Source of the DNA: Paramagnetospirillum kuznetsovii
Lineage (GTDB): Bacteria > Pseudomonadota > Alphaproteobacteria > Rhodospirillales > Magnetospirillaceae
Direction: 5' to 3'
NCBI RefSeq assembly: GCF_003284725.1
Contig: NZ_PGTO01000020.1
Coordinates: forward strand, 1 to 52,221
Length of the DNA: 52,221 nt
In this document: piece after piece, positions 31,164-41,162 of the stretch
How positions within the stretch are numbered: position 1 is the first letter of the stretch
Layout of the letters: every line of letters starts with the position of its first letter
Program-made: the position numbers and the translations under genes
The notes under the pieces: model-generated
What the model saw: only the letters and a program-made list of their open reading frames with translations
The model's database searches: none
What the model was told of the DNA's origin: nothing

Positions 31164-31262
31164 GCGTTTCCATCCCCCCTATTCCACTGTTGCCCCGAAA
31201 CCGTCATGACGCTACCGTGAAAGTTGGGGAATGAAACACCTTTGGTTTCGGGGGCGGGGGCG

Positions 31263-33311
31263 ATGCGGTTTCTCGACAATCTTCGATTTGGGCGGCGGAT
31301 CGGCTTGGCATTGCTGCTGCCGGTTTTCGGGTTGCTGGCCTTTTCGGGCTATGTGATCGCCCTGCGCTGGATGGTGGTGTCCGACACCAGCGGCTTGATC
31401 CGCATGGCCTCGCTGGCCGTCAATATCAGCGCCACCGTCCATGAATTGCAGAAAGAGCGAGGCGCGTCCTCCCTCTTCGTGGCCAGCGGCCGCACTCAGT
31501 TCGCCGACAAGGTCGCCGCCCAGCGCAAGCTGTCGGACGAGGCGGCCGAACGTCTGGAACGCGATGCCGCCGACAGCGGAACCGCCGCGCTAGGCCCGAT
31601 CTTCATGGAGGCCATGACCAAGGCGCGGACCGCCATGGCCTCTCGCCAGAAGCTGCGCGCCGACATCGATTCGGGTGGCATCGACCGCAACGGCCTATTC
31701 CAGGCCTATACCGCCATGATCAAGGTTCAGCTGGATCTGGTCGGACTGATGAGCCAGGTCACCCCGGACAAGGACGCCGCCGAGGCGGTCAGCGCCTATC
31801 TGGCCTTCATGGAAGCCAAGGAACGCGCCGGCCAGGAACGCGCCACCGGCGCCGGAGGCTTCGCGGGCAATTTCGACGGCGCCACCTATCGCCGGTTCGT
31901 TTCGCTGATCGCCGATCAGGAAATGCTGTTCACCCATTTCATCCGCACCGCCGCCCCTGAGCTGGTCAGCTCTTTCCGCGACACCATGAAGGATCCGGTG
32001 GTCGCCGAGATCACCGCCATGCGCGAGGCCGCCTACGCAAAGGCCCTGGGCGGCGGCGAAGGGATTCCCGCTTCCAAGTGGTTCGAGGCGTCCACCAAGC
32101 GCATCGACCTGATGAAGGGGGTCGAGGATCGTATCGCCAACGGCTTGATCGCCACCGCCCAACACAACAGCGAGTCCGCCCGCCTGCTGTTGTGGTTTCA
32201 GATCTTCGCCGTCCTGTTCGGCCTGGGCTTCACCTTCGCCGTCGCCGCCGTCCTGGCCAGGGGCATTACCCGCCCCATCAACGACCTGACCTCGGCCATG
32301 AACCGCTTGGCCCGGGGCGACACCGCCATCCACCTGGACGGGCTCGACCTTGACAGCGAACAAGGTGAAATGGCCCGCGCCGTCGAGGTCTTCCGCAACA
32401 ACCGGCTGGAAGCGGAGCGCCTTGCCGCCGCCCAGGCCGAGGCCCAGCAGGCCAAGGAACGTCGGCAACAGAATGTGGATCGCCTGACAGCCGAATTCCG
32501 CGGAGAGATTTCCGGCGTGCTGGCCGCCATGGAAACGGCATCGGGCCAAATGAGCCATAGCGCGCATGCGCTGGAGAATACCGCCCGGACCATGACATCC
32601 AACACGGCCGCCGTCTCGGCCGCCGCCGATCAGGCCAGCGCCAATGTGCAGACGGTGGCCGGGGCGGCCGAGGAACTGGCGGCCTCCATCAACGAGATCA
32701 GCCGACAGGTGGCGACCTCGGCGGACGTCTCCCAAGAGGCGGTGAGCGAGGCGGAGCGGACCAACGCCCTGGTGGCCGGCCTGTCGGACGCGGCGCGCAG
32801 CATCGGCGAGGTGGTCACCATGATCGGCGACATCGCGGGTCAGACCAATCTGCTGGCACTCAACGCCACTATTGAAGCCGCCAGGGCGGGCGAAGCAGGC
32901 AAGGGCTTCGCCGTGGTGGCCAATGAGGTCAAGCACCTCGCCACCCAGACCGCCAAGGCCACCAACCAGATCACCGAGCAGGTCGGCGCCGTCCAGGCCG
33001 CCACCGATCAGGCCGTCGCCGCCATCCAATCCATCGGCCACATCATCGCGCGCATCAACCAGGTCTCGTCGGCCATCGCCGCCGCGGTGGAGGAGCAAGA
33101 CGCCACCACCCGCGACATCGCCCGCAATGTGCAGGAAGCCGCCCACGGCACCCAGGAAGTATCGGCGCATGTGTCCGAGGTCACCGCCGAGGCCGCCGAC
33201 ACCGGCAACACCGCCGAAGACGTACTGACCGCGGTGCGCGGCCTGAGCGCGCAATCCGAAGCGCTGAATCAGGCGGTCCAGCGCTTCCTGGCCGGAGTGG
33301 AAGCGGCCTGA
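31263..33311 (+). CDS. Methyl-accepting chemotaxis protein with NIT sensor domain
   Basis: 682 residues from the ATG at 31263. Membrane segment about 12-34, then a periplasmic all-helical NIT-type domain: [16 protein letters not shown] near residue 60, [19 protein letters not shown] later. A second membrane segment lies about 310-332 ([20 protein letters not shown]), then HAMP about 335-385 and the MCP signalling domain, with tip sequence [20 protein letters not shown]. The NIT domain is known from nitrate/nitrite-responsive receptors, so nitrate or a related anion is a likely signal. Single gene; it converges on the lipoprotein gene with a three-base gap. Confidence 0.9.
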
Positions 33312-33314
33312 GGG

Positions 33315-33836
33315 CTACAGATTGCTCTTGGCATAGTCGCAGGCCTTGTCGGCGATGCGATCGAGCATCATGTCGTCGGTGATGCCGAAGGTCGCCGCGC
33401 CGGACATGGCGAAGCCCCGCGCATAGAACACCGGCTCGGCGATGACCCGCCGATTGGCGGTATCGGTGAACCTTACCTTCATCAGGACGGCGGAACTTCC
33501 CGGCATGAAGCCGAACAGCACCCGCTCATAGGCGGTCACCTTCTTGATATCGGTGATGACGGGTTCCATCAGCAGGCCCTTGGGCATGTCGCCATTGGCG
33601 CGAAGACCGGGAAACACCGTCTTCATGCAGGCGAGAAGCTCGGCCTCGACATCCGCGACGGCGCCGATATCACCCGGCCCGGTGCCCAGTTGCTCCACCC
33701 GCAGCGGCGCCAGGAACACCTTGGAATAGGCCCCCAAAGACTCCCCCGTCGGCTGGACCTCGCCTTCGGGCGCATGAATTTGGGTCATGCAGCCGCCAAG
33801 CAAGCTCAACACGGCGATGATGGAAAGCGTCTTCAT
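33315..33836 (-). CDS. Predicted lipoprotein of unknown function
   Basis: 173 residues. Signal peptide with lipobox LGGC (Cys 16). The rest is a single soluble domain: YSKVFLAPLRVEQLGTG, then LLMEPVITDIKKVTAYERVLFGFMP and VRFTDTANRRVIAEPVF, a layout of beta strands like outer-membrane lipoproteins of the DUF4410 kind, a comparison from memory and unverified. ATG follows gggggatcc. The next gene upstream is also a lipoprotein on the same strand, about 110 bases away. Confidence 0.7.
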   Translation of the reverse strand: MKTLSIIAVLSLLGGCMTQIHAPEGEVQPTGESLGAYSKVFLAPLRVEQLGTGPGDIGAVADVEAELLACMKTVFPGLRANGDMPKGLLMEPVITDIKKVTAYERVLFGFMPGSSAVLMKVRFTDTANRRVIAEPVFYARGFAMSGAATFGITDDMMLDRIADKACDYAKSNL

Positions 33837-33944: not shown

Positions 33945-34526
33945 CTAACGCAGCAGGGCGAGAAACTGCGGATCGTTCAGGGTTTCATCGATGGCATCCT
34001 GCATGACCGAATTCGCCACCTTGCGCAGATCCTCCACCTCGGCGAACAAGCCGTTGCCGAGCAATTGGAAGTCGCCTTCCCGGCGTCCCGTCGTCTCCCG
34101 GTGATAAACCAGTCGGCCAGAAAATTTCTGTACCACCGAAATGCTGAACCGGGCATTGGCCTCCCGCTTGAAGAACTGGTTGCAGTCAAACCGCTCGATG
34201 CTGACCCGCAGGGCGAACTGGCTATGCCCCCCCACGAGCCCCCGCGCCTTCAGGCCGTCGGCAAACCCGGCCTTGACCACGTCCTTGACCGGCATCTCGG
34301 TGGTGATGGTCTTGAGCGGCTCTCCAAAGCCGCCACGAATGGCGCCCAGCCAATTGGGATCCTTGTTCCGGTCATCCGTGACCGCATCGATCTCCACCGT
34401 GAAGCGAGCGGCCTGCCTTGGCGCGACAACCTTGCCGGCATCATAGGTCAAGCTGGTGGGCGTGGTGCTGCATCCCGCCACAATCAGGCCAAACATCACC
34501 GCCAAGCAACGTGTCCAACCCGTCAT
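33945..34526 (-). CDS. Predicted lipoprotein, YajG-like
   Basis: 193 residues, signal peptide with lipobox VAGC (Cys 19). After it, RFTVEIDAVTDDRNKDPNWLGAI and a repeated strand/helix layout with VVKAGFADGLKARGLV resemble YajG-type lipoproteins. The C-terminal half is helical and acidic (EVEDLRKVANSVMQDAIDE). Start ATG at 34526 is followed by basic and then hydrophobic residues. Same strand and about 110 bases upstream of the other lipoprotein gene, so possibly one transcript. Divergent from the sulfur operon across 400 bases. Confidence 0.65.
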   Translation of the reverse strand: MTGWTRCLAVMFGLIVAGCSTTPTSLTYDAGKVVAPRQAARFTVEIDAVTDDRNKDPNWLGAIRGGFGEPLKTITTEMPVKDVVKAGFADGLKARGLVGGHSQFALRVSIERFDCNQFFKREANARFSISVVQKFSGRLVYHRETTGRREGDFQLLGNGLFAEVEDLRKVANSVMQDAIDETLNDPQFLALLR

Positions 34527-34925: not shown

Positions 34926-36026
34926 GTGTCCGAATTGCCAGTGACCACGATCGTCGGCGCGGGGGCTTTTGTCGCCGGGACACTCTTCGGCTGGACGGCC
35001 CAGAAGACCAATTTCTGCACCATGGGCGCCATCTCGGACATCGTCTTCATGGGTGATTGGCGGCGGTTTCGCGCCTGGATGCTGGCCGTCGCCGTGGCGC
35101 TGGCGGGAACCCAGATCCTGCACCTTACCGGCACCATTAATATCGGCAAGTCCATCTATCTGACGCCCAATTTCGGCTGGGCCGGAGCCATCCTGGGCGG
35201 GCTGATGTTCGGCTTCGGCATGACCATGGGCGGTGGCTGCGGCAACAAGACCCTGGTGCGCATCGGTGGCGGCAATCTGAAGTCGGTGGTGGTTTTCCTG
35301 GTGCTCGGCTTCTTCTCCTACATGACGCTGCGCGGGTTGATCGCCCTGGGGCGTATCCAGTTGGAAGCCTCCAACATCAATCTGGCCGATCTCGGCTTCG
35401 CCACCCAGGGCCTGCCCGACATCGTCGCCAAGCTGACCGGTCTGTCGGCCCAGACGGCGCGAGTCGCGCTGACGGCGGTGATCGGCGGCGGCCTGGCGGC
35501 GTGGTGCTTCAAGGATTCCGAATTCCGGGGATCAAGCCACGACGTGGTCGGCGGGCTGGTGATCGGGTTGATGGTGGTGGCGGGATGGGCGGTTTCCGGC
35601 GTGCTGGGCGCCGATGAATTCGACCCGGCGCCCCTGTCGTCCTTCACCTTCGTCGCCCCCATCGGCGGCGCGCTGCAATATCTGATGAGCTTCACCGGCG
35701 CCACCATCGATTTCGGCGTGGCGGCGGTGGGCGGCGTCATCTTCGGCGCCTTCCTGGCGGCCAAGGCCTCGGGCAAGTTCCAGTGGGAGAGCTTCGCCGG
35801 AACCGACGACATGCTGCGCCATCTGGTCGGCGCCGCCCTGATGGGGACCGGCGGCGTGCTGGCCTTGGGCTGCACCGTGGGCCAGGGCATCACCGGCATG
35901 TCCACCCTGGCCCTGTCGGCCCCTATCGCGCTGGCCGCCATCGTGTTCGGCGGCGTGGTCGGCATGAAGTATTTGGAAGAGGGAACCCTGTCCGGCGCCG
36001 TCAAGGCGGCGTTGGGGCGCGGTTGA
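34926..36026 (+). CDS. YeeE/YedE family sulfur-compound transporter
   Basis: 366 residues, GTG start at 34926 after ggggaggggaaaac. About nine hydrophobic segments. Three conserved Cys motifs mark the family: NFCTMGAISDIV, MGGGCGNKTLVRIGGG and LALGCTVGQGITGMS. In known TsuA/YeeE proteins these cysteines relay thiosulfate through the membrane. It is the first gene of the sulfur-oxidation unit, 16 bases from SoxY, so import or export of a sulfur substrate for the Sox proteins is likely. Which compound and direction cannot be read from sequence. Confidence 0.88.
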   Translation: MSELPVTTIVGAGAFVAGTLFGWTAQKTNFCTMGAISDIVFMGDWRRFRAWMLAVAVALAGTQILHLTGTINIGKSIYLTPNFGWAGAILGGLMFGFGMTMGGGCGNKTLVRIGGGNLKSVVVFLVLGFFSYMTLRGLIALGRIQLEASNINLADLGFATQGLPDIVAKLTGLSAQTARVALTAVIGGGLAAWCFKDSEFRGSSHDVVGGLVIGLMVVAGWAVSGVLGADEFDPAPLSSFTFVAPIGGALQYLMSFTGATIDFGVAAVGGVIFGAFLAAKASGKFQWESFAGTDDMLRHLVGAALMGTGGVLALGCTVGQGITGMSTLALSAPIALAAIVFGGVVGMKYLEEGTLSGAVKAALGRG

Positions 36027-36042
36027 CGTGGTCGAGGGGGGA

Positions 36043-36498
36043 ATGGTGAAGCCAGAATCCGGTCTGAATCGGCGCCAAGCAATGGTCGCCATGGGGGGCG
36101 CCGCCTGCGTCGGCGTTCTGCCCAATCTTGCCTGGGCCACTCCGGCCGAGGCCGAAGCCGCCGTCAAGGCGCTGATCGGCAGCACGGCGACCACCGAGGG
36201 ACGAGTGCAGCTGAAGCTGCCCCAGATCGCCGAGAACGGCGCCACCGTGCAGCTTCGGGTGCTGGTGGACAGCCCCATGACCGCGGCCGATCACGTCAAG
36301 GCGATCCATATCCTGGCCGAGGGCAATCCCCTGCCGGGTGTCGCCTCGTTCCACTTCACGGCCCGTAGCGGCAAGGCCGACGTCTCCACCCGTATTCGCC
36401 TGGGCAAGACCCAGAACGTGCACGCCGTGGCGGTCATGAGCAACGGATCGGTGTGGCGGGCCAAGGAAGAAGTCAAGGTCACGGTCGGCGGCTGTTGA
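36043..36498 (+). CDS. soxY: SoxY sulfur carrier protein
   Basis: 151 residues from the ATG at 36043; GTG at 36046 fits the gagggggga ribosome site equally well. Tat signal NRRQAMVAMGGAACVGVLPN with cleavage after AWA. The body matches SoxY (VKAIHILAEGNPLPGVASFHF, VHAVAVMSNGSVWRAKEEV). It ends VTVGGC, so the sulfur-binding Cys is the last residue; most SoxY proteins have GGCGG at the end. With SoxZ it carries sulfur intermediates on that Cys in the periplasm. SoxZ follows by 21 bases. Confidence 0.9.
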   Translation: MVKPESGLNRRQAMVAMGGAACVGVLPNLAWATPAEAEAAVKALIGSTATTEGRVQLKLPQIAENGATVQLRVLVDSPMTAADHVKAIHILAEGNPLPGVASFHFTARSGKADVSTRIRLGKTQNVHAVAVMSNGSVWRAKEEVKVTVGGC

Positions 36499-36519
36499 CG
36501 CGGAAAGGGAGAAGCGGGA

Positions 36520-36840
36520 ATGGCCAGCGCCAAGATCAAGGTGCCTGAGACCGCCAAGAAAGGCGAAGTGATCGAGATCAAGACCTCGATCACTCATGAC
36601 ATGGAATCGGGTCAGCGCAAGGACGCGAACGACAAGCCGATCCCGCGCCGGATCATCAACACGTTTACCTGCAAGTACAATGGCACAGAAGTATTCCGTA
36701 TGGACCTGCATCCTGCGGTTTCGGCTAATCCATATATCTCGTTTTTCGTTGTCGCGACCGAAACCGGAAAGATTGAAATGTTCTGGAACGACGACAATGG
36801 GGAAATCTACACCGCGGCGTCGTCCATAACCGTCTCGTGA
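36520..36840 (+). CDS. soxZ: SoxZ sulfur-oxidation protein
   Basis: 106 residues, no signal peptide, as usual: SoxZ is exported with SoxY. Landmarks: IKVPETAKKGEVIEIKTSIT, HDMESGQRKD, INTFTCKYNGTEVFRMDLHP, ANPYISFFVVATETGKIEM. ATG after aagggagaagcggga. It forms the SoxYZ heterodimer that presents the sulfur-bearing Cys to Sox enzymes. The codon use shifts to more AT in its middle (about 36650-36800). Next gene is a cytochrome, 40 bases on. Confidence 0.95.
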   Translation: MASAKIKVPETAKKGEVIEIKTSITHDMESGQRKDANDKPIPRRIINTFTCKYNGTEVFRMDLHPAVSANPYISFFVVATETGKIEMFWNDDNGEIYTAASSITVS

Positions 36841-36880
36841 AGACGGCAACGACGCATATGTTCCTGGGGAGGAGATCAGC

Positions 36881-37174
36881 ATGAAGTCTTACCTTGTAGC
36901 GATCCCGGTCTGCCTGGGCCTTGCCCTGGTGGCGGCACCCGCCGCCCGGGCCGGCTCGGCCAATGTCATGGCCGATTCCTGCGCGGGTTGCCATGGCACC
37001 GGCGGCCAAAGCCTGGGCGCCATGCCCGCCTTCAACACCAAGTCGGCCGACGAGCTGAAGAAGATGCTGCGCGACTACCGCAGCGGCGCCCGCGAGGCCA
37101 CCATCATGGATCGCATCACCAAGGGCTATTCCGAAGCGCAGCTCGACGCCATCGTCGACTACTACAAGAAGTGA
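36881..37174 (+). CDS. Monoheme c-type cytochrome (FccA-like)
   Basis: 97 residues: signal peptide MKSYLVAIPVCLGLALVAAP with cleavage after ARA, then one heme site CAGCH (34-38), GAMPAFNTKSADELKKML, with Met as probable sixth ligand, and a C-terminal YSEAQLDAIVDYY helix. Directly upstream of the flavoprotein gene, it is best read as the cytochrome subunit of flavocytochrome c sulfide dehydrogenase. Start after ctggggaggagatcagc. A role as the cytochrome partner of FccB is inferred from order. Confidence 0.85.
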   Translation: MKSYLVAIPVCLGLALVAAPAARAGSANVMADSCAGCHGTGGQSLGAMPAFNTKSADELKKMLRDYRSGAREATIMDRITKGYSEAQLDAIVDYYKK

Positions 37175-37184
37175 GGGCTAGGCC

Positions 37185-38456
37185 ATGATGAAACTCTCTC
37201 GCAGAACCTTCACCGGTCTGGTCGGATTCGCCGGTGCGGCCTCGGCCTTCGGTCTGTCCGCTTGCGCCACCGGCCCCAAGGTGGTGGTGGTGGGCGGCGG
37301 CTTCGGCGGCGCCACCGCCGCCAAATACGTCAAGCGCTACCTGCCCGGCGCCAATGTGGTCTTGATCGACGCCGCCAAGACGCACTTCACCTGCCCGTTC
37401 TCCAACACGGTGATCGGCGGCATGAATTCCATGGCCTTCATCGAACGCAGCTTCGATGCGCTGGCCAACAAATACGGCATCACCGTGGTGACCGACATGG
37501 TCACCGCCATCGACCCCGTCACCAAGGTGGTCAAGACCAAGGGCGGCATCAGCTTCGGCTATGACAAGCTGGTGGTCTCACCCGGCGTCGATCTCAAATG
37601 GGGCGCGCTGGAAGGCTATGACGAGGCGGCGGCCGAACTGATGCCGCACGCCTGGAAAGCCGGGCCGCAGACCGCCCTGCTGCGCAAGCAACTGGAAGCC
37701 ATGCCCAATGGCGGCACCGTGATGATCAGCGCGCCGGGCAATCCCTTTCGCTGCCCGCCCGGCCCCTACGAGCGGGCCAGCCTGATCGCCTATTACCTCA
37801 AGACCCAGAAGCCCAAGTCCAAGCTCATCATCCTCGATGCCAAGGACGCCTTCGCCAAGGACAAGCTGTTCAAGGAAGGCTGGGAGAAGATGTACGACAA
37901 CATCATCGAATGGGTTCCCGCCGCCAAGAACGGCAAGGTCGTGAAGGTGGACGCCAAGGCGGGCGTGCTGGAAACCGATTTCGACAAGTTCAAGCCGGCG
38001 GTGGCCAATGTCATTCCGCCGCAGTCGGCGGGCGCCATCGCGCTGTCCACCGGTCTGGCGGACAAAAGCGGCTTTTGCCCGGTGGACCCCAATACCTTCG
38101 AATCCACCCTGCACAAGGACATCTTCGTCATCGGCGATGCCTGCACGGCGGGCGAGATGCCCAAGTCCGGCTATTCGGCCAGCTCGCAAGCCAAGGTCGC
38201 GGCGGGCGCCATCGCCGCCATGGTAATGGGCGACAAACCCGCCGCCATGTCGGCCATCAACACCTGCTACTCGTTGCTGGCACCCGATTACGGCATTTCC
38301 GTCTCCGGCGTCTATTCGGTCCAGGACGGCAAGATCGCCAATATCAAGGGGGCGGGTGGCGTCAGCCCTTCGGGGGCCAACTACCAGTTCCGCAAGAAGG
38401 AAGCCGACTTCGCGGGCGGCTGGTATGCCAGCATTTGCCAGGATACCTGGGGCTAA
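37185..38456 (+). CDS. fccB: Flavocytochrome c sulfide dehydrogenase flavoprotein subunit (FccB/SoxF)
   Basis: 423 residues. Signal has a Tat motif SRRTF and a lipobox-like LSAC near residue 27, so export as a Tat substrate, possibly lipidated. FAD-binding [20 protein letters not shown], then Cys in [14 protein letters not shown] (about 70), the position of the covalent FAD in known FccB. Two more Cys, in [15 protein letters not shown] (about 180) and INTCYSLL, match the redox disulfide. FccB oxidises sulfide and passes electrons to its cytochrome. The C-terminal [10 protein letters not shown] is typical. Ten bases after the cytochrome gene. Confidence 0.93.
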
Positions 38457-38471
38457 TAAGAAAATGAGACT

Positions 38472-38497
38472 GGCCGCGCTCGACCCTGGGCGCGGCC
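38472..38497 (+). promoter_or_regulatory. Hairpin in the fccB-diheme cytochrome gap
   Basis: ggccgcgc and gcgcggcc, 8-bp perfect arms around a 10-base loop, just after the fccB stop and before the next gene's gga-rich ribosome site. No T-run. It may stabilise or process the messenger or attenuate transcription. Confidence 0.4.
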
Positions 38498-38515
38498 GGA
38501 GGGAGGGAGACTCGG

Positions 38516-39211
38516 ATGTTTGCTCGCTGTCTTGCGGCCTTTGCCGCCGTGATGATGCTGTTGACCGGGGCGGCCGCCTCGGCCGCCGAATTGGAATCGT
38601 CCATCGCCCGTGGCGGACGGCTCTACGACAACTGGTACAAGGAAAAGAAGCTGGACCGGCCGGAGGCCGCCCACGCGGCCTATCCGGCGGGGGGCAAGTA
38701 TCCCAAGCAGTCGTGGCGCTGCAAGGAGTGCCACGGCTGGGACTACAAGGGCAAGGACGGCGCCGCCGCCAAGACCGACCATCTGGTCCCCATCAAGGGC
38801 ATCACCGGCATGGCGGGCAAGGATCCGGCCACCATCGCGCCCCTCTTCCGCGACAAGAACCACGGCTTCGCGCCCGAGCAATTGAACGACAAGGATGTCC
38901 AGGATCTCGCCCTGTTCGTCTCCAAGGGGCAGATGGATACCGCCAAGTTCATCGATCCCGCCTCGGGCAAGCCCAAGGGCAACGCCGCCAAGGGCGAGGT
39001 CTATTTCAATACGCTCTGCGCCGGTTGCCATGGCCTGGACGGTAAGAAGGTCAGCACCGGCGTGCCGCTGGGCCAGGCCTCGGACAATCCGTGGGACATG
39101 CTGCACAAGGCGTTCAACGGCCTGCCCGCCGAAGCCATGCCGGCGCTACGCTCGCTTGACCCGAGCATCGCCTCCGATACCGTCGCCTATACCCAGTCTT
39201 TACCCAAATGA
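38516..39211 (+). CDS. Diheme c-type cytochrome, periplasmic
   Basis: 231 residues: signal peptide ending about ASA-AE (residue 23), heme sites CKECH (69-73) and CAGCH (168-172). Domain layout ([37 protein letters not shown], then [34 protein letters not shown]) is that of a diheme cytochrome family that recurs in Sox and related clusters; it also recalls thiosulfate dehydrogenase in size and heme number, not verified. The next gene overlaps its stop (ATGA), so the two are coupled; it probably hands electrons to or takes them from the membrane cytochrome. Confidence 0.85.
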
Positions 39212-39771
39212 GTGGGCCGGAAATGACCGGGAATGGCGAAAAGTGCCACGGGCGCGGGCGCAAGCTCGCCCTGCTGGCCGGGGGGATCGTGGCGGGCATG
39301 GTGCTCATGCTCGGGCTGATCGCCGGATTCGAATACACCAACCGCACCGAGTTCTGCATCAACTGCCACTCAATGCAGACCAATTACAACGAACTGAAAC
39401 AGTCGGTTCACTACTCCAACCGCTCGGGCGCCCATGCCCAATGCGCCGACTGCCACATCCCCAAGGAATGGGGCGCCAAGCTGACGCGCAAGCTGTTCGC
39501 CGCCAACGACATCATCGCCGAAATGAAGGGCACTCTGGATACTCCGGAGAAATACAACGCCAAGCGCGGAGAACTGGCGGAACGGGTGTGGAAATACATG
39601 GCGGCCAGCGGCTCGCGGGAATGCGTCAGCTGCCATTCCTACGAGTCCATGAATGCCGCCAAGCAGACCACCGCCGCCCGGCAAAAGCATCAGGACGCGT
39701 CCAAGGAAGGCCGCACCTGCATCGCCTGTCACAAGGGCGTCGCCCACAAGATGCCGCCCAGGGAAGAGTAG
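39208..39771 (+). CDS. NapC/NirT-type tetraheme membrane cytochrome
   Basis: 187 residues: one N-terminal membrane anchor (about 19-42, [20 protein letters not shown]), then four heme sites CINCH, CADCH, CVSCH and CIACH at about 50, 79, 139 and 171. FCINCHSMQ and the spacing are those of NapC/NirT. Known members move electrons between quinol and periplasmic partners. In this operon, at the end of a sulfur-oxidising gene set, it would link the diheme cytochrome to the quinone pool. Direction is inference. Start overlaps the previous stop; an inner ATG at 39223 is possible. Confidence 0.92.
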
Positions 39772-39839: not shown

Positions 39840-41162
39840 GTGACTGAACAGGTGGATCTGGACGCGCTGGAGGCAATGATCGACCGTTTGCTGGACGGCG
39901 GCTATTGCTCCTTGCCCGGAGCCGAAGGGCGGGTCGCCGACAAGCTGAGACGGCTGGCCGATACCCTGGAGGAGCGGTCCCGCGGCATCCTGACCCAATC
40001 GGTCGGCATGTCGATCCATCTTAACAGCACGGTCACCCAGGCGCTTCACACCTTGCGCAGCATTCGGGAAATGAGCCAGCGCATGACCACCATCTCGGCT
40101 TCCACCGAGGAACTGGTGTCGACGGTCCAAGCCATCAGCCGCACCTCCGAACTGGCCGCCAGCAATGCCCATGGGGTTCAGAGCATCTCTGATGAGGGGG
40201 CTCGCAGCACCGAAACGGTGGTCGAGACCATGCGCGGCATCGTCAATACGGTGACCGAGACGGCAGAGCGCGTCACCCATCTGGCCGAGGCGTCCACCAG
40301 CATCGGCGCCATCGTCAAGCAGATCGAGCAGATCGCCCGCCAGACCAATATCCTGGCCATGAACGCGACCATCGAAGCGGCACGGGCCGGCGAGGCGGGC
40401 AAGGGCTTCAATGTGGTCGCCACCGAGGTCAAGAACCTCGCCAACCAGACCGCGCGGGCCACCCAGGATATCCGCAAGCGCATCGATCAACTCCGTGAGG
40501 AAACCGACGCCATTCTGCTGGGAATGACCAAGGGAGCCGAGACGGTGCGCCATGGCGAGATGGTGGTCATGGACTCGGTCGGCAAGATGCGGACCGTCAG
40601 TCAGGAAATCCGTGACGTCACCACCTTGATGCAGGAAATCTCGGACCATCTGGGGCAGCAACGGCAATCGGCCCAGGTGATCGCGGAAAATCTGGAAGAA
40701 GCCGCGACGCGCTCGGTCACCGATACCGACGCCATCAACGCCATGATCGATACATCGGCATTGGCCAGCGGTTCACTGGTCGATCTGCTGACGGATATCA
40801 ATAAGGTGGAGATGCGCAACGCCGTCATACATCTCGCCAAGTCCGACCACATGATCTGGCGCCGCCGTCTGGCCGAGATGCTGGCCGGTCGGACCACGCT
40901 GAACCCCAACGAGTTGGCCGATCACCGGTCCTGTCGGCTGGGAAAGTGGTATTACGGCGTCCAGGATCCCGCCATTACCGGCCATGCCGCGTTCCGCGCC
41001 ATGGAGAGCGCGCACGAGAAGGTTCACCACTTGGGCATCGAGGCGGCCAAGCTGTATCAGGCCGGGGATTTCGACGCCGCCATCGCGGCGGTGAGCGCCA
41101 TCGAGGGGCCGTCCCAGGAGGTTCAGCGCAGGCTGGATGAACTGGCCGTCGCCTTTTCGTGA
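39840..41162 (+). CDS. Soluble chemoreceptor with C-terminal CZB zinc-binding domain
   Basis: 440 residues from GTG 39840 (gaagggaac upstream). No membrane segment; the first 60 residues hold no known sensor. MCP signalling core with tip [20 protein letters not shown] in the middle, then a C-terminal CZB domain, with [34 protein letters not shown] and [12 protein letters not shown] giving His-Cys-His-His zinc ligands. CZB receptors respond to zinc or hypochlorous acid in known cases. It may sense the redox chemistry of the sulfur operon just upstream, an inference from position. Ends four bases before the convergent phosphatase gene. Confidence 0.88.

Follow-up and report, generated by a model that had tools for sequence, protein, structure and literature searches.

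The window analysed here, the whole of contig C12 (52,221 nucleotides) of the 4.4 Mb, 69-contig draft assembly of Paramagnetospirillum kuznetsovii (genome G000), carries seven open reading frames (ORFs) on the + strand at 34926-39771. They encode, in order, a YeeE-type transporter, SoxY, SoxZ, a monoheme FccA-type cytochrome c, the flavoprotein FccB, a diheme cytochrome c (Cyt2) and a NapC-type tetraheme cytochrome c. A sequence-only reading of this DNA had described seven co-directional genes with small gaps or overlaps, and the ORFs, the Pfam matches and the counts of CXXCH heme motifs agree with that description. The successive intergenic distances are 1, 21, 40, 10, 59 and -4 bases, which suggests that the seven genes may be transcribed as one unit. 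Promoter-like and terminator-like sites occurred at chance level (2 against an expected 1.5 and 6 against an expected 5.4, respectively), so the label 'operon' rests on the spacing together with the conserved gene order described below. Rfam gave no match. The operon sits 12 kb inside the contig.

The first gene (34926-36026, +, GTG start) encodes a 366-amino-acid YeeE/YedE (Sulf_transp) transporter of TsuA/SoxT-like type (PF04143, 234.5 bits). It matched the YeeE chain of Spirochaeta thermophila (6leo; phmmer 7.7e-11), and its Cys31, Cys105 and Cys316 line up with cysteines of that chain; the PF04143 domain and the three aligned pore cysteines place it in the YeeE/YedE family. The curated NCBIfam models did not assign it to the TsuA thiosulfate transporters, its scores of 78.4 and 77.3 bits lying below the respective cut-offs of 645 and 400. 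SoxY (156 amino acids, 36028-36498, +; PF13501, 130.8 bits; 2ox5_Y, 4.8e-20) has a leader that, read by eye, is twin-arginine-like (NRRQAM), and its carrier cysteine, Cys156, is the final residue before the stop codon (VTVGGC). It scored 138.4 against TIGR04488, the model of true SoxY, above the cut-off of 125. Its top-scoring model was TIGR04487 (AACIE arm type) at 141.2, yet this lies below the cut-off of 172 and the arm is GGC, so it is not an AACIE arm protein. SoxZ (106 amino acids, 36520-36840, +) matched PF08770 (108.3 bits) and TIGR04490 (101 against a cut-off of 76). With both domains, the C-terminal carrier cysteine and scores above cut-off for TIGR04488 and TIGR04490, the pair belongs to the SoxYZ carrier family.

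The monoheme cytochrome (Cyt1, 97 amino acids, 36881-37174, +) has one CXXCH motif, a signal peptide recognised by eye and a Cytochrom_C domain (30.2 bits). Its nearest solved structure is 5n1t_B (3.9e-14), followed by the cytochrome subunits of 3vrd and 1fcd, and the phage families searched with it gave no match. FccB, the flavoprotein of flavocytochrome c sulfide dehydrogenase (423 amino acids, 37185-38456, +), contains PF21706 FCSD_central (167.8 bits) and PF09242 FCSD-flav_bind (88.3 bits), and its structural relatives are 5n1t_A (3.9e-137, the best), then 3vrd_B and 1fcd_A. Cys70 (TCPFSN), Cys190 (FRCPPG) and Cys361 (TCYS) of FccB have cysteine counterparts in the 5n1t and 3vrd chains, and we take them to be the flavin adenine dinucleotide (FAD)-link and redox-disulfide cysteines. 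The FCSD domains, the conserved cysteines and the adjoining cytochrome subunit identify the pair as FccAB, a predicted sulfide oxidiser whose function is taken from its family.

Cyt2 (231 amino acids, 38516-39211, +) has two CXXCH motifs, both invariant across a 28-row alignment. Its Cytochrome_CBB3 match (45.1 bits) covers the C-terminal half only, so that the second heme site alone falls in a Pfam family, and its AlphaFold2 model (pLDDT 81.5) had no whole-chain match in the PDB, the best TM to the query being ~0.3. The last gene (39208-39771, +), which overlaps that of Cyt2 by 4 bases, encodes a 187-amino-acid tetraheme cytochrome c with four CXXCH motifs, a single N-terminal transmembrane stretch (by eye) and a Cytochrom_NNT domain (PF03264, 215.7 bits). 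The domain and the four hemes place it in the NapC/NirT family; against the curated TIGR02161 (napC_nirT) subfamily it scored 203.3, below the cut-off of 310.6, and NrfH (2j7a, 1.1e-7) was its sole solved relative.

Three SoxY copies were found in the host genome, one in the operon on C12 and the others on contigs C7 and C62. SoxXA and SoxB had been reported absent nearby, and in the host SoxB and SoxA were indeed found only on C7, where a SoxX-like cytochrome (named by position) is followed by soxY, soxZ, soxA and soxB; a second, weak SoxB match on C33 was below cut-off. SoxCD were absent among the C7 neighbours scanned, no genome-wide SoxCD search having been made. The locus on C12 thus has SoxYZ without the SoxB and SoxXA that make up a Sox system. 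No soxXAB cluster continues the operon just outside the window as far as the contigs show, and soxB or soxXA as members of the same operon are ruled out by their location on another contig. FccB gave one strong match in the genome, and DsrA was above cut-off in all 22 genomes chosen for this search, the host copy lying on C22 and being presumably of the oxidative type. The third soxYZ pair, on C62 (L005 8662-9466), had no other sulfur family among the ten ORFs scanned, and close relatives of its SoxY (76-78%) occur in G003, G007 and G012, genomes without a SoxB match.

FccB was searched in an order-level set of 199 relatives, of which 110 matched at 1e-20, and gene neighbourhoods were compared at 80 loci (L014-L093) that are among the better FccB matches and not all of them. 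Three other genomes of the host genus (G003, G007 and G012) carry all seven genes with order and orientation unchanged, at 69-90% identity by tblastn; that search also located SoxY of L016, NapC of L014 and FccA of L015. With the host G000 included, 4 of the 17 genus members searched possess the full operon; 13 of the 17 are FccB-positive, and all 13 were examined. By this comparison, the conserved order is not a product of chance. SoxB matched in 83 of the 199 relatives and SoxA in 10 of the 22 chosen genomes, 5 of them below 80 bits; neither matched in G003, G007 or G012, which are listed as 99-100% complete. The persistence of the order in these three genomes, where SoxB has no match, makes it unlikely that the operon is the decayed remnant of a sox cluster. 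Among the other order-level loci, FccA-FccB-Cyt2-NapC stands without an adjoining TsuA-SoxYZ at L017-L026, L028 and L032, and in four genomes of another family (L027 and L029-L031) this core has TsuA-SoxY-SoxZ alongside on the opposite strand. A second arrangement, FccA(diheme)-FccB-NapC-(four-heme Cyt2), was found at L043, L060-L064, L066, L067, L069 and L070, and parts of it at L052, L053, L057, L065 and L068. Going by its title, a 2010 study by Geelhoed et al. reports that M. sulfuroxidans J10 can grow on reduced sulfur.

The sequence-only reading had proposed that SoxYZ here may carry sulfur for FccB or for the transporter. Comparison supports such a role, in place of one with SoxXAB, well, both through the three congeners without a SoxB or SoxA match and through the co-occurrence of FccB and SoxY. 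Among the 116 SoxB-negative genomes of the order-level set, in which FccB matches <200 bits were not scored as FccB, 31 had both FccB and SoxY and 71 had neither. In a class-level set of 389 genomes drawn across the class (minimum completeness 95), the 347 SoxB-negative genomes divided into 54 with both, 7 with FccB only, 1 with SoxY only and 285 with neither, so that FccB is present in 54 of the 55 SoxB-negative genomes having SoxY; the 42 SoxB-positive genomes comprised 32 with both and 10 with SoxY only. Fisher tests gave p values of 4e-15 (order set) and 3e-54 (class set), relatedness being ignored. FccB and SoxY lie <3.5 kb apart in 32 of the 54 class genomes, representing 21 genera.

Gene arrangements at these loci varied. 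L219, outside the order and in a genome listed with 7% contamination, has TsuA-SoxY-SoxZ-FccA-FccB, the first five genes of the operon. At L242-L246, SoxYZ (for L244 the listing shows SoxZ alone) and FccB are accompanied by a YeeE gene on the other strand, and in four of these loci a diheme cytochrome lies between. On plasmids, Paracoccus alcaliphilus has cytc-FccB-YeeE-FAD protein-SoxY-SoxZ, Sinorhizobium meliloti pSymA has SoxY-SoxZ-cytc-FccB, and parts of the FccAB-SoxYZ module recur in Roseomonas marmotae. The commonest form among the class-level loci compared is FccAB-SoxX-SoxY-SoxZ-SoxA, in which SoxY has arms such as AACIE; one SoxY copy on a Neorhizobium plasmid is annotated 'SoxY-related AACIE arm protein'. 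Hence, the seven-gene order was seen only in the host genus, SoxYZ-YeeE-FccAB is a recurrent subset, and SoxYZ with FccAB is common. As a separate observation, FccAB accompanies the whole or the greater part of a SoxX-SoxY(AAC or GAC arm)-SoxZ-SoxA set, with no SoxB found at the locus, at, for example, L220, L222, L223, L226-L229 and L231-L233, and further loci of this type (L237-L241, L247-L250 and the plasmid locus L216) are spread over many genera of the class.

SoxB holds the SoxY arm in a tunnel, and the arm endings of SoxY differed with its gene neighbours. The rows compared, one per locus and label, are mutually related and not independent, so their Fisher value cannot be read as a probability; 19 locus ids were left out of the SoxY tree as repeats or near relatives (L094, L095, L096, L098, L099, L174-L179, L181, L183-L187, L227 and L251), and L202 was scored as near neither partner, its SoxB-like neighbour being a 27% identical paralogue. 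All 15 SoxY rows near SoxB end GGCGG, as do the left-out L183, L184, L186 and L187, which are likewise near SoxB. Of the 51 rows that have FccB but not SoxB nearby, one shows this ending, and 5 have no arm motif and are apparently SoxYZ fusions. In the host, the C7 and C62 copies end GGCGG; the operon SoxY, ending GGC, lacks this arm of the Sox thiosulfate system. A single clade for the eight SoxY that end GGC next to FccAB-Cyt2-NapC was not rejected (p 0.598), and independent loss of the terminal GG in two clades is accordingly unsupported.

These data bear on whether the operon SoxYZ might instead work with the SoxXAB of C7, or in sulfite oxidation, and be only co-regulated with FccAB, as a spare thiosulfate carrier. 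A SoxXYZAB set exists on C7, the operon SoxY scores above threshold for TIGR04488, the model of the true thiosulfate carrier, and in A. vinosum SoxYZ by itself has been associated with the oxidation of sulfite (Dahl et al. 2013, as relayed in a passage of PMC6783814). We nevertheless consider this explanation unlikely, because the three congeners retain the operon without a SoxB or SoxA match, C7 has its own SoxYZ, and the operon SoxY arm is without the terminal GG seen in all 15 SoxB-linked rows; moreover, a general sulfite role leaves the presence of FccB in 54 of 55 SoxB-negative genomes with SoxY unexplained.

Several observations weigh against a dedicated FccAB-SoxYZ partnership. The co-occurrence counts carry no correction for relatedness; the SoxB-negative order-level genomes include 9 with SoxY but no strong FccB and 5 with FccB but no SoxY, and in 22 of the 54 class genomes no FccB-SoxY pair falls within 3.5 kb. 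At 34 class-level FccB-SoxY loci (the 32 above and two slightly above the 3.5 kb limit), SoxB was found at 0, SoxA at 26, SoxX at 21 and a YeeE gene at 6, so much of the class-wide link reflects a different, SoxXYZA-FccAB cluster. SoxY near neither SoxB nor FccB ends GGCGG in 11 of 15 rows, and a second SoxY of G003, G007 and G012, away from FccB, has this ending though no SoxB was found, which means that the ending does not follow the gene neighbour strictly. In addition, the host carries SoxXAB and an SQR-like gene. The latter, on C43 (L206 5568-6881), is a second candidate sulfide oxidase in the host.

The sequence-only reading had also proposed that electrons are led into quinone. What stands is that NapC belongs to a quinone-linked family and that the FccB-linked NapCs are possibly one lineage; the direction of electron flow is less certain. 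NapC lies <=6 kb from FccB in 34 of the 80 order-set loci and is absent from all 34 class-level FccB-SoxY loci. A tree was built from 87 NapC rows, those with <4 CXXCH motifs having been left out; one clade for the 34 FccB-linked rows was not rejected (approximately unbiased (AU) p 0.595), and the unconstrained quick tree needs two changes for these rows; two separate recruitments of NapC to FccB are therefore unsupported. NapC as a member of a nap operon was set aside, its listed neighbours being FccB and Cyt2, with no search aimed at nap genes in these loci. The best 80 named Cyt2 loci of at least 508 relatives (L098 counted as a miss) had NapC beside Cyt2 in 58, FccB in 8 and SoxY in 3, and Cyt2-NapC adjoining FccB was found only in order-set loci and named copies of some. 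Because most named pairs are without FccB, Cyt2-NapC appears to be a cytochrome-quinone module of general use to which FccAB was added, and not one invented in this operon. Such FccB-less pairs (among L102-L173) come from records named Beta-, Gamma- and Alphaproteobacteria and sometimes stand beside two-component regulators.

NapC relatives usually oxidise quinol, and NapC-Cyt2 may run from quinol to cytochrome c, feeding a periplasmic oxidant or FccAB acting as a sulfur or polysulfide reductase. We regard this as a real possibility, if short of an even chance. It would fit the 50 of the best 80 named loci in which NapC stands beside Cyt2 without FccB, as at L124, beside cytochrome c1 and two-component genes, and L118, beside a sensor kinase. 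There is also NapC-family precedent in ImoA, a protein of an iron oxidiser that, according to PMC9600427, oxidises quinol, quinone reduction having once been proposed. Two points count against quinol oxidation in this operon. The FccB-linked NapCs, possibly one separate lineage, occur with Cyt2 or its four-heme form in two gene orders, which suggests a dedicated role with FccAB, and a reductive role fits poorly with a carrier and an importer that feed reverse Dsr. Sulfide to ubiquinone is energetically downhill by the potentials, which lends a weak lean to that direction. Taken together, quinone coupling by NapC-Cyt2 is plausible.

To our knowledge, the fate of sulfide-derived sulfur after FccAB is not settled. 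We favour, by a modest degree of confidence, a SoxXAB-independent route that combines sulfide oxidation by FccAB, SoxYZ as carrier, import by the YeeE-type protein, reverse Dsr and electron transfer through Cyt2-NapC to quinone. In this route, periplasmic FccAB would oxidise sulfide, as expected from its family, and the resulting sulfane sulfur (persulfide or polysulfide) would pass to the Cys-ended arm of the dedicated SoxYZ, as the gene linkage suggests. Loaded SoxYZ would then present the sulfur to the YeeE-type transporter for passage into the cytoplasm, where reverse Dsr could oxidise it; DsrA is present, and the transfer to it is presumed. Electrons would move from FccB to monoheme FccA, on to diheme Cyt2 and then to the NapC-type cytochrome, which is anchored in the membrane and may be coupled to quinone. 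We consider the direction from sulfide to ubiquinone, followed by the bc1 complex or reverse electron flow, the likelier, but it is the weakest step. The conserved cysteines of FccB, the transporter and SoxY are in line with the proposed route and speak for it. Thus, the carrier half of the sequence-only reading appears strengthened well beyond its first evidence, and the quinone half is best treated as a hypothesis.

Co-occurrence in 54 of 55 genomes, operons common to both and a relaxed SoxY arm together offer a testable answer, namely that SoxYZ receives sulfur from FccAB. If this is true, soxYZ in metagenomes would not by itself be a sign of thiosulfate oxidation, and if NapC passes electrons into quinone, the energy yield of FccAB would exceed that of the usual entry at the cytochrome level. 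A wider proposal, which we put forward tentatively and hold to be doubtful as a whole, is that across the Alphaproteobacteria SoxYZ may be as much a partner of FccAB as of SoxXAB, with FccB loading SoxY and with Cyt2-NapC making FccAB a multi-part sulfide:quinone reductase.

The neighbouring genes raise one further, very different possibility. NapC had been taken to end the operon, and it is the last of the seven genes; the next gene, here and in G003 and G012, encodes a chemoreceptor. This possible eighth gene (39840-41162, +, 68 bases downstream) encodes a 440-amino-acid protein with MCPsignal (123.6 bits) and CZB (58.4 bits) domains, and genes 84-85% identical to it lie directly 3' of NapC in G003 (L014) and G012 (L015), whereas the search of the G007 locus found no such gene. 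The locus could then be a chemosensory and signalling unit in which chemoreceptors are informed of sulfane sulfur by SoxYZ and the transporter, FccAB serving as the sensor input. The CZB chemoreceptor follows NapC in 3 of the 4 operons, chemoreceptors of the NIT type stand beside TsuA-SoxYZ in L209, L211 and the host, and a signalling role has been proposed for SoxT1B of Hyphomicrobium in a portion of PMC11582611. Set against the missing gene in G007 and the finding of a chemoreceptor <=3 kb away in only 9 of 64 SoxY rows (two of the 9 being the same place, and 19 of the 64 rows lying in loci <3.5 kb), this explanation seems to us highly improbable, and we retain sulfide oxidation as the favoured function. 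The chemoreceptors with a nitrate/nitrite-sensing NIT domain near TsuA-SoxYZ were seen in three genomes, at 31224-33311 of the window, 6908-9049 of L209 and 2646-4784 of L211. Upstream of the operon, on the minus strand, 33315-33836 and 33945-34526 each encode a small lipoprotein-like protein, one DUF4410-like and one Lipoprotein_16-like, with scores below the Pfam cut-off.

In the portions of the open-access literature covered, on fccAB with NapC or SoxYZ/YeeE and on sulfur oxidation in Magnetospirillum, we found no description of an FccAB-SoxYZ-YeeE or FccAB-NapC module. A section of PMC6382920 gives fccAB as without conserved neighbours in a comparison that includes four named sulfur oxidisers, and part of PMC11237559 describes an expansion of the SoxY family with YeeE near one divergent SoxY form. 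A close case is that of freshwater magnetotactic cocci, which likewise retain soxYZ without other sox genes alongside predicted FccAB and DsrAB; unlike here, the role of SoxYZ was posed there as a question and sulfite oxidation was suggested, the linkage to FccAB being undiscussed in the passage concerned (PMC6783814). Once sulfane sulfur bound to SoxYZ has formed, the YeeE-type importer SoxT1A of Hyphomicrobium denitrificans provides the cytoplasm with sulfur to be oxidised there, according to PMC11582611. The operon transporter resembles SoxT1A and TsuA in its Sulf_transp family and three aligned cysteines, and differs in standing beside FccAB, in the expectation of reverse Dsr instead of sHdr and in scoring below the TsuA cut-offs. 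With the Sox thiosulfate pathway the operon shares the SoxY and SoxZ families and a carrier cysteine on the C-terminal arm, whereas its locus has no SoxB or SoxXA, three genomes that host it have no SoxB or SoxA match, and the arm is GGC, not GGCGG. Its NapC is tetraheme, with a single membrane anchor (by eye) and PF03264, as are NapC, NrfH, CymA and ImoA, but it is partnered with FccAB and Cyt2 and falls below the curated napC_nirT cut-off. Compared with the solved FccAB proteins (5n1t, 3vrd and 1fcd), the operon has the same FCSD-domain flavoprotein with matching cysteines and an adjoining monoheme subunit resembling 5n1t_B, and adds to them SoxYZ, a YeeE transporter, Cyt2 and NapC.

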